64,000 nucleotides of DNA from Luteibacter flocculans. Its GTDB lineage: Bacteria; Pseudomonadota; Gammaproteobacteria; Xanthomonadales; Rhodanobacteraceae. Within the stretch, counting starts at the first letter, position 1. Each line of letters starts with the position of its first letter. This document shows positions 14,600-18,625 of the stretch, piece after piece. The position numbers were made by a program, and so were the translations under genes. The notes beneath the pieces were generated by a model. It worked only from the letters and a program-made list of their open reading frames with translations, did no database searches and was not told where the DNA came from. The stretch lies in contig NZ_CP063231.1 in assembly GCF_023612255.1 (NCBI RefSeq), forward strand, positions 3,578,001 through 3,642,000. Reading direction: 5' to 3'.

Positions 14600-14616
14600 G
14601 TACTGTGTGGGAGATC

Positions 14617-15570
14617 CTATGTTGAGGCGCAAGCGGCAGCGAAGCGTTCGGGGTCGAAGGGCTGACCTTTAGTGAGGATGGCGTGGGCGAGTCGGATGAT
14701 CTTCCGAGCCAGGATCACGAAGACGGCGGTGGCACTGAGTCCGCGCGCGCGGTAGCGCGCGTAGAGTGCTTGGCCGACCGTATGCCGAGCGAAGGTGGCC
14801 GCCGCCATGTAAGTCAGTCGTCGAAATTCCGCCTCGCCCCGCTTGGAGAGCTTACGCGTGCCGCGGTAGCTGCCGGACTCCCGGGGCCGAGGGTCCAAGC
14901 CGATATAGGCAATCAGCGCCTCGGCGCCAATGCCTGGCAGGCGCCAGAAAAGGCTCAGCAAGGCCGCACTGCTAAGCGCCCCCACGCCGGGAATGGTGCG
15001 CAGCAGTTCGCGTTGTTGTTGGCGCGCCCGATCGGCGGCGACCTGCTCATCGATGAGTCGGTCGATCTGGGCCAGGGCGGCTTTGTACTGCGCCAACAAG
15101 GCATCGATAGCGGGCAGCGGCGCGTCCTGGAAACCTAACCGCAGGCTGCCTTGCTGCCTCACCAGCAAGGCCCGTCGCCGCAGCAGCCATTCCAGGCTGG
15201 CCGCATGCTCTTCCGGCGCGGTATAGCGTCGTAAATGGTCCTGCTCGCGCTCCAGATAACGGGCAATGACTTGGGCGTCGACCCGATCGGTCTTGGCCCG
15301 TCGCCGCAGGCTCTCCGCGTAATGGCGCACGTCCCGCGGATTGAGCAGGTAAATGGCCACCCCCTTGGCCACCGCACGCTGCAACAACGTCTGATGGCAG
15401 GCGCCGCTGGCTTCCACGGCCAGCACGCTGCGCGGCGGCAACTCATCCAGCCACGCATCAATGGCCGGCGGGTCGTTGCCGATCCGCCGCGTCTGACCCG
15501 GCACTTGGTGGCAAGCCACCGTCAGAGCCGCCTTGTCGATATCGATCCCGAAATGACGTACTGGCTTCAT
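14617..15570 (-). CDS. IS110-family transposase (RuvC-like DEDD plus Transposase_20 domains)
   Basis: 317 aa recombinase. The N-terminal DEDD/RuvC-like domain has FGIDIDKAALTVACHQ (first Asp), VLAVEASGACHQTLL (Glu) and RRAKTDRVDAQVIARYL (Asp pair). The C-terminal Transposase_20 domain has LLRTIPGVGALSSAALLS and RPRESGSYRGTRKLSKRGEA, the latter holding the candidate catalytic serine. A GGAG box sits 8 nt before the ATG at 15570; upstream in-frame ATGs exist but would run through the non-coding end. All key residues are intact, so the element may still be active. The stop codon is only about 4 nt from the inferred element end, as in IS110-group elements. Confidence 0.93.
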   Translation of the reverse strand: MKPVRHFGIDIDKAALTVACHQVPGQTRRIGNDPPAIDAWLDELPPRSVLAVEASGACHQTLLQRAVAKGVAIYLLNPRDVRHYAESLRRRAKTDRVDAQVIARYLEREQDHLRRYTAPEEHAASLEWLLRRRALLVRQQGSLRLGFQDAPLPAIDALLAQYKAALAQIDRLIDEQVAADRARQQQRELLRTIPGVGALSSAALLSLFWRLPGIGAEALIAYIGLDPRPRESGSYRGTRKLSKRGEAEFRRLTYMAAATFARHTVGQALYARYRARGLSATAVFVILARKIIRLAHAILTKGQPFDPERFAAACAST

Positions 15571-15795
15571 GGTCCCACTCCTCGTAGTCTCAAGGACGGC
15601 TGGGGTGAAGCCCATCGACGCGTTAGCTTGTTCATCGGCGATCGGATCGCCAGATCCTTCATCGACGCTCACGATGGGTCGGGATGTCTCTCACTGTCGG
15701 TCTCGTTGGTCGAGCCGATACCACTAGCGTCCCTCACCCCAGCCCCTTATCCCTCGCCTTGCCGGCGAGAGAAAGGGGCGGACACAACATACAAG
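15571..15795 (-). ncRNA. Candidate bridge RNA region of the IS110 element
   Basis: IS110-group elements such as IS621 encode a structured guide RNA in the non-coding end 5' of the transposase. Here that segment can fold: 15598-15608 (GGCTGGGGTGA) pairs perfectly with 15734-15744 (TCACCCCAGCC), enclosing about 125 nt. Inside, CCCATCG (15611-15617) pairs with CGATGGG (15672-15678) around a small hairpin at 15637-15651. A further hairpin (GCCCCTT...AAGGGGC, CTCGCC...GGCGAG) lies at about 15743-15780. RNA ends and guide loops were not resolved. Confidence 0.5.
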
Positions 15796-15855
15796 CCGCT
15801 ATGGCGGCGAGGTTCGAGGGACCACACTGTCCGGCATCGCCGCTCCGGCGGCTTC

Positions 15856-15878
15856 TCGCCGCTATAGCGGCTCCCACA
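15856..15878. repeat. REP element upstream of uup
   Basis: Inverted-orientation REP: stem CCGCTATAGCGG followed by CTCCCAC (complement of the GTGGGAG head). It is a separate copy from the REP split by the IS110 element. Confidence 0.65.
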
Positions 15879-17817: not shown

Positions 17818-18625
17818 TGCCTCGCCGGCATGCCGGCTCCTACAACGGCATCGCGCACCCTGTGGGAGCCGCTATAGCGGCGAGACAATCCAACCGCCGT
17901 CTGCACACCCAACGTTCGCGCGGCGGGAAGAACTGGAAGGTTGAGGGTACCGCCACACTGAGGCGCCCCCATCGCCAGCAGGCTGGCTCCCACCGCAGCA
18001 CACCCTGGCTCATTAGCTGCCCCCATCGCCAGCAGGCTGGCTCCCACCACAGCACATCCTGGCTCACTAGCTGCCCCCATCGCCAGCAGGCTGGCTCCCA
18101 CCACAGCACGCCCTGGCTCACTAGCTGCCCCCATCGCCAGCAGGCTGGCTCCCACCGCAGCAGACCATGGCTCACTAGCTGCCCGTCGCCAGCAGGCTGG
18201 CTCCCACCACAGCACACCCTGGCTCACTAGCTGCCCCCATAGCCAGCAGGCTGGCTCCCACCACAGCACACCCTGGCTCACTAGCTGCCCCTATCGCCAG
18301 CAGGCTGGCTCCCACCGCAGCAGACCATGGCTCACTAGCTGCCCGTCGCCAGCAGGCTGGCTCCACCACAGCACGCCCTGACTCACCAGCAGGCTGGCCT
18401 GGCCTCGGTACTGGCGGTGGGAGCCAGCCTGCTGGCGATGGGGATAACAGCAACCCAACAGCCGGTTCGAACGGCGATGGCGGCGAGAAAAGCCGTCCGC
18501 AGTCTGCAAAGCCTGCACACGTCGTTTTGGTAACCGCGCACCGCGGCAACCTGCCTCGCCGGCATGCCGGCTCCTACGACGGCATCGCACCCCTGCTTGT
18601 GGGAGCCGCCATGGCGGCGAGACAA
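17818..18625. repeat. Tandem REP array between uup and ppc
   Basis: An 890-bp gene-free interval filled by REP units. From 17974 the palindrome GCCAGC-AG-GCTGGC recurs at 18028, 18082, 18136, 18188, 18242, 18296 and 18348, with spacings 54, 54, 54, 52, 54, 54 and 52 bp. Each is followed by TCCCACC and an almost invariant CAGCA...CCTGGCTCACTAGCTG stretch. Segments 18136-18187 and 18296-18347 are identical, indicating a 160-bp higher-order duplication. Degenerate units follow to about 18400; an opposite-facing copy is at 18417-18441. Related REPs with stems CCGGCATGCCGG (17821, 18554), CCGCTATAGCGG (17861) and CCGCCATGGCGG (18599) flank the array. The peptide repeats encoded on the minus strand are a by-product. 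Confidence 0.9.

Follow-up and report, generated by a model that had tools for sequence, protein, structure and literature searches.

The window analysed here, a 64,000-nucleotide stretch of a Luteibacter genome, contains a REP interrupted by an IS110-family element, and the question raised by this locus is what brings such an element to one particular base of a repeat: an RNA encoded by the element, the recombinase alone, the duplication of DNA already carrying a copy, or the shape of the repeat. Judging by sequence comparison, the element is very probably a bridge-RNA-guided insertion sequence of the IS110 group.

The element and the REP that it splits

The junctions, which can be read directly, place the 1,180-bp element, whose recombinase gene is on the minus strand, between two copies of a core dinucleotide, AG (CT on the recombinase strand) (Table 1). 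This bears out the initial annotation, according to which a REP had been cut in two with AG present at both junctions (14612-14613 and 15794-15795). On the recombinase strand the order is ...CATAGCGGCT-TGTATGTTG ... CAACATAGGAT-CTCCCACACAG..., the CT cores being 1,180 bp apart. When the element is removed, TGTGGGAG is joined to CCGCTATGGCGGCGAG and the result belongs to the local REP family. The rebuilt repeat had also been described as a perfect member; its membership stands, but not its perfection, as the rebuilt GTGGGAGCCGCTATGGCGGC is one base off GTGGGAGCCGCTATAGCGGC (15858, 17862). As is usual in the IS110 family, terminal inverted repeats are absent and the dinucleotide core is found at both junctions, in all six genomic copies. 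The inversely oriented TATGTTG/CAACATA noticed earlier near the ends is indeed present, and its 7 bp are at the bottom of the range reported for sub-terminal repeats of the IS1111 group (7-17 bp), those of the IS110 group being 2-3 bp long (PMC11208160); TATGTT is at the same time the -10-like hexamer of the circle junction.

Table 1. Coordinates (window numbering) of the element, its predicted RNA and the flanking REP arms.
Feature	Position	Strand	Remark
Left half of split REP, TGTGGGAG, including core AG (14612-14613)	14606..14613	.	junction; boundary identical in 6/6 copies
IS110-family element, 1,180 bp between core copies; LE at 15793, RE at 14614	14614..15793	-	
DEDD/serine recombinase, 317 aa; candidate catalytic D10, E53, D95, D98, S232	14617..15570	-	domain matches; motif positions, ISCro4 alignment
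-35-like TTGCGC (3/6 to TTGACA) in last recombinase codons near right end; half of possible circle-junction promoter	14627..14632	-	
Donor-binding loop of predicted bridge RNA	15611..15678	-	
Right donor guide ACAAG (partner: CTTGT of core and left end) and putative handshake guide CU	15625..15631	-	hand-counted from loop
Left donor guide AAGGAUCU; its match is AGGATCT (right end with core)	15652..15659	-	
Target-binding loop of predicted bridge RNA	15681..15733	-	
Right target guide GUGAGAG, 6/7 pairs with CTCCCAC	15688..15694	-	
Left target guide UAGUGGU, 7/7 with TAGCGGC of split REP, two G-U wobbles	15720..15726	-	counted from AGTGGTA at 15719-15725
5' hairpin of predicted bridge RNA	15742..15781	-	
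-10-like TATGTT in left end; 17-bp spacing to -35 only in circular form	15786..15791	-	
Second core AG (15794-15795) and right half of split REP, CCGCTATGGCGGCGAG (15796-15811)	15794..15811	.	
Intact opposite REP arm of the same inverted doublet, GTGGGAGCCGCTATAGCGGC, not hit	15858..15877	-	

The recombinase shows matches to PF01548 (E 2.6e-20) and PF02371 (E 5e-15), that is, a DEDD RuvC-like domain and a Transposase_20 domain with a conserved serine, as is characteristic of IS110-family proteins. Among the solved structures, ISCro4 (9t56) was the best phmmer match (E 4.2e-28), with IS621 found at E 7.7e-28. The non-coding DNA amounts to 223 bp upstream of the gene and 3 bp downstream, a layout that distinguishes the IS110 group from IS1111, in that the left end preceding the gene is long and carries the RNA and the right end is short (PMC11208160).

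The corresponding locus of related genomes agrees with an insertion. The interval between galM and the ABC-F gene, 26 to 232 bp long in 22 other genomes of the genus, is free of the element in all 22. A base-exact empty site, the kind suggested as a check in the initial annotation, was not found in this interval because its REPs differ between species; GTGGGAGCC or GGCTCCCAC is present there in 5 of the 22 genomes, as part of other REP types.

Predicted bridge RNA and its guides

A contig scan yielded two related loci, both of Luteibacter jiangsuensis, with 68 and 67% identity. With the host's own genome included, relatives are carried by 3/233 genomes of the family at E 1e-60 and by 6/369 genomes of the class and 7/398 of the order at E 1e-50, and at the latter threshold none is encoded in the plasmid records. 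The set kept for comparison consists of 12 elements with both ends found, from 11 genomes and with 36-68% identity to the window protein: the window element, one of the two of L. jiangsuensis, two different ones of G272 (G272a and G272b), one of the five of G671, and those of G038, G506, G268, G527, G385, G758 and G734. The loci left out are further copies of the same elements (five in the host genome, one in L. jiangsuensis, four in G671). The 12 left ends were aligned with MAFFT blind to the targets, which gave 71 gap-free blocks of 8 columns. Since the relatives are partly clustered by descent, the permutation counts given below are not strict probabilities.

The left end of the window element (15571-15797) has a predicted fold with a minimum free energy of -100.8 kcal/mol (z -3.6), a stability attained by 0 of 200 shuffled sequences. 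RNAalifold analysis of the 12 relatives returned 18 pairs, including 7 that changed on both sides, six of them in the donor loop and one at the base of the target loop. The predicted RNA shares with known bridge RNAs the presence of two internal loops and guides that covary with target and donor, the donor-side covariation coming from one two-state position. In a single copy of G671 (L042), a duplication of a left-end segment has resulted in two target-binding loops in tandem. The Rfam search (E up to 1) produced four hits, all of them below the gathering scores and none a bridge RNA; the sub-threshold match to dauA covers the REP doublet to the right of the element. The 5' hairpin, which we took to resemble a dispersed intergenic repeat of related bacteria, was dropped as a candidate for such a repeat, the derived pattern being found once in the window, inside the element itself.

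The right target guide corresponds to alignment columns 60-67. These columns were first picked after both guides and targets had been seen, a choice that was removed by a later scan of all gap-free blocks: columns 60-67 show 65 of 72 possible non-core Watson-Crick matches to the elements' own right targets, and the next best of the 71 blocks shows 35. When the targets were permuted, the mean was 29.3 and the maximum 56, with none of 20,000 permutations reaching 65. Reduction of the set to one element per distinct target (7) left 37/42 matches against a permuted mean of 16.0; two of 20,000 permutations were as high, which is to be expected, since few permutations restore the true order. All six non-core positions are matched in L. 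jiangsuensis, G038, G506, G527, G385, G734 and G671, five in G268, G272b and G758, and four in the window element and G272a, whose right guides are the poorest of the 12. Eleven of the 12 guides fit no foreign target better than their own, the exception being that of G268, which does better on the L. jiangsuensis target. The guide has to be read at its homologous place for this result to emerge, as a free search over 75 nt with wobbles allowed gives the window RNA 6/8 on its own target and up to 8/8 on those of others. Taken at that place, the covariation of guides with targets across 12 related elements supports, at the level of sequence, the guide-directed insertion into REPs that had been proposed in the initial annotation.

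In all six copies of the host genome the guide is GUGAGAG, with one internal A-C mismatch facing CTCCCAC. The better matching GTGAGAGCC occurs at 16 sites, as against 16 for the reversed control, and none of the six copies is inserted there. Either insertion tolerates one mismatch in the right guide, or the guide acquired the change later than the last insertion and this change then spread.

In the case of the left target guide, a free search within 32 nt gave 68/84 exact matches (permuted mean 53.2, maximum 66, 0/20,000 as high), the best place varying among the RNAs. In the window RNA this place is a segment of the apical stem, UAUCGGC, a rival left guide that reaches 7/8, or 6/7 exact, in free searches; UAGUGGU is preferred as the probable guide because its place matches the layout of the relatives. 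At that fixed place, hand-chosen strings of the seven RNAs of the window clade score 46/56 with wobbles (mean 33.0, maximum 46, 11/20,000 as high), G506 scores 2/8, and two of the five G671 copies, with targets ending in GCATGGCT, fit the guide poorly as judged by eye. Across relatives, covariation of left guide and target is present as well, although loose.

Within the host genome, the left guide forms 6/6 pairs with the targets of the window copy and L004 and 5/6 with the other four, so that all six insertions reach 5 or 6 pairs, versus 43 of 100 sampled GGCTCCCAC sites (the first 100 of 568 such sites, on the forward strand in the first 1.61 Mb, T-first sites excluded). The chance of this, if the insertions were independent, is 0.43^6 = 0.006, or 0.034 for four events, and the support for selection by the left guide within this genome is therefore modest.

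In the seven RNAs of the window clade, out of the 12, the left guide places an A opposite T, the second base of the core; the remaining five RNAs were assessed by eye. In this respect the element differs from IS621, whose left target guide pairs with the core and in which pairing of both core bases is described as strongly preferred (PMC11208160). The structural study describes recognition of this T by the main chain of the protein (PMC11208158), which may account for the tolerated A.

The model of a protein that reads the palindrome predates bridge RNAs (PMC1525189). According to it, the recombinase alone would recognise the sequence or the palindrome of the REP, the non-coding end being merely a 5' leader, and the GTGGGAG that the REP heads have in common would suit such recognition. 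For the present element this seems improbable, as the targets of the relatives differ (CTCGGCTC, CTCGACTC, CTCATCGC, CTCCTACG, CTGAACCC, CTTATTCA) and a fixed segment of the RNA changes along with them, and as one arm of the doublet has been hit while the adjacent opposite arm is intact.

The remaining guides of the predicted bridge RNA concern the donor. In each of the 12 elements the left donor guide contains whichever of GGAT and GAAT is found in the right end. In IS621, the two bases beside each right guide are reported to engage the other DNA by base pairing once strands have been exchanged (PMC11208158). Here, the first such handshake base of the donor loop forms a pair with position 7 of the target in 11 of 12 elements (294/20,000 permutations as good) and tracks the target in G758 and G734, and the second pairs with position 6 in 8/12; the first handshake base of the target loop pairs in 6/12, which lends it no support. 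When the ends of the elements are joined, a -35-like hexamer near the right end comes to lie exactly 17 bp from TATGTT, TATGTC or TATGGT of the left end in 12/12, with 0-3 mismatches (3 in the window element), which is a match to the consensus only. In the integrated state the left flank offers 3-6 mismatches to TTGACA at 17 bp and 2-5 if 16-18 bp are allowed. A junction promoter has been reported for IS621 and its relatives (PMC11208160).

Copies and REPs in the host genome

The host genome, a single contig of 4,299,254 bp, harbours six full-length copies, each inserted at the identical base and in the same orientation, the recombinase strand reading GGCT|element|CTCCCAC. In the five further full-length copies, as in the window, TGTATGTTG immediately follows CT and CAACATAGGAT immediately precedes CT. 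All six copies are found in GTGGGAGCC REPs, and none of the six has its ends elsewhere, which would have contradicted the initial annotation. Occupation of one position of the host REPs by every copy is a trait of REP-targeting IS110 elements. The window copy and three others are identical throughout their 1,180 bp; L005 and L006 deviate by indels, and L006 additionally by two substitutions. The GCCACCAGGGTGGCTCCCAC arm holds L002, L003, L005 and L006, CTACTAGAGTGGCT holds L004, and CGCCATAGCGGCT the window copy. As for the repeats themselves, GTGGGAGCC is present 584 times in the genome and its reversed control 86 times; the window has 16 occurrences, compared with 0.8 expected. REP heads are thus over-represented about sevenfold, yet make up a tiny share of positions, so that six insertions at one base would not be explained by chance. 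Among the 50 matches listed (40 of 180 candidates scored), 44 are confined to the flanking REP and none represents a lone left end.

Repeated guided insertion is not the sole way in which copies could have multiplied, as homologous recombination between REPs or duplication of arrays might have spread them. The flanks of L005 and L006 are in fact identical over 89 and 92 bp, both copies being located within one 118-bp tandem REP array, and 79 bp of the right flank of L004 are common to both of them; the L005/L006 pair may represent one insertion plus a duplication. The flanks of L001, L002, L003 and L004, however, are mutually distinct: identity ends on the left side after 4-17 bases and on the right side after 7-10, so that no fewer than four of the insertions appear to be separate events. 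The distinct flanks make duplication unlikely as a general explanation for the copies, and as a substitute for repeated guided insertion it is very improbable. The least credible alternative, targeting through a hairpin or cruciform formed by REP DNA and independent of sequence, would fit the palindromic targets of the window element and several relatives, but hardly the fixed base and orientation in 6/6 copies or the finding that both L. jiangsuensis copies are in the ATAGCCGGCT arm matched by their left guide, the AGCGGCT arm being also common there (100 of 626 sites listed).

Several further features of the REPs of this genome were recorded. The 118-bp tandem array of REP doublets hosts its two element copies about 450 bp apart (L075 548-1179, 2356-2828, 4009-4326; G000:C1:1918500-1924500). 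In both, indels break the reading frame; one of the indel places is a run of G, hence a sequencing error is possible. An eight-copy 54-bp tandem array of the REP units GCCAGCAGGCTGGCTCCCAC is found at 17965-18390 of the window, just downstream of the ABC-F gene, and GGCTCCCAC units (CCCACCAAGCGGGCTCCCAC and similar) form a tandem run with 15-bp spacing at G000:C1:931718-931932. Five of the GTGAGAGCC sites, none of them with a copy, are clustered at G000:C1:1597131-1597562 amid GTGGGAGCC sites.

Proposed insertion pathway and known systems

In the case of bridge-RNA-guided insertion, the element would excise as a circle, whereby the right-end -35-like hexamer would be brought to 17 bp from the left-end -10-like hexamer. 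The bridge RNA would then be expressed from the circle. By means of this RNA the recombinase would pair the junction of the circle with a REP at its GGCTCCCAC, and recombination at CT would leave the core at both junctions. The recombination target expected under this model is GCGGCTCCCAC or GTGGCTCCCAC. A more speculative proposal, which we put forward tentatively, is that the left guide of this clade leaves the second core base unpaired and makes use of G-U wobbles, which might allow a single RNA to read several arms of fast-changing REPs; the choice of target would be left mostly to the right guide and to a recombinase that accepts a fixed internal mismatch, and the guides would track the host REPs from species to species (Luteibacter sp. 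versus L. jiangsuensis).

The experimentally studied case of an IS110 element in REPs is IS621 of Escherichia coli (PMC11208160). The two elements are alike in the combination of a DEDD and serine recombinase with a long left end and an RNA with target and donor loops (PMC11208160), as well as in the CT core and the REP target, and may be alike in the promoter re-formed at the circle junction (PMC11208160, PMC11208158), for which the present element offers a consensus match only. However, the REP target is ATCAGGCCTAC in IS621 and GGCTCCCAC here (PMC11208160), and the recombinases are distant. The likeness to ISCro4 concerns the recombinase. ISPpu9 and ISPpu10 of Pseudomonas putida also belong to the IS110 family, and 7/7 copies of each are reported in REPs, at one position and with a 2-bp direct repeat (PMC1525189), which in ISPpu9 is AG (PMC8450116); the REPs in question, however, are those of P. 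putida, and in ISPpu9 the gene is flanked by two small RNAs, with orphan ssr9 copies being described as well (PMC8450116). All six copies of ISPa11 are likewise reported in REPs (PMC1525189). In the parts of the literature covered on Luteibacter together with IS110, insertion sequences or REPs, nothing was found on this element.

Since insertion of IS110 elements into REPs has been documented for several of them, the present case, which the initial annotation had regarded as independent, does remain independent but is not new in kind; bridge RNAs are known as well, and the element is a further, well-documented example. The mismatch between left guide and core and the internal one of the right guide could make it a mild variant. 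Together with its relatives it provides a natural set of close and distant bridge RNAs whose targets are known. The left guides of one pair, from a single genus, follow the different REPs of their hosts. Such sets show natural rewriting of guides and tolerated mismatch, and are relevant to the design of bridge recombinases.

The L. jiangsuensis elements of this pair (L021 and L022, with recombinases 68 and 67% identical) have the same ends, RNA scaffold and right target, CTCCCAC, as the window element. In contrast, their right guide, GUGGGAG, is the perfect complement of this target, and their left guide, AUAGCUGGU, matches ATAGCCGGC, an arm of their own REPs, with two wobbles (8/8 computed, the ninth position by eye). 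The L. jiangsuensis genome contains 626 GGCTCCCAC sites, and the 100 listed are mostly of two arm types. Two more distant elements from other families (L034 of G268 and L035 of G527, 36% identity) also target CTCCCACA, their right guides matching 5 and 6 of 6 positions, respectively.
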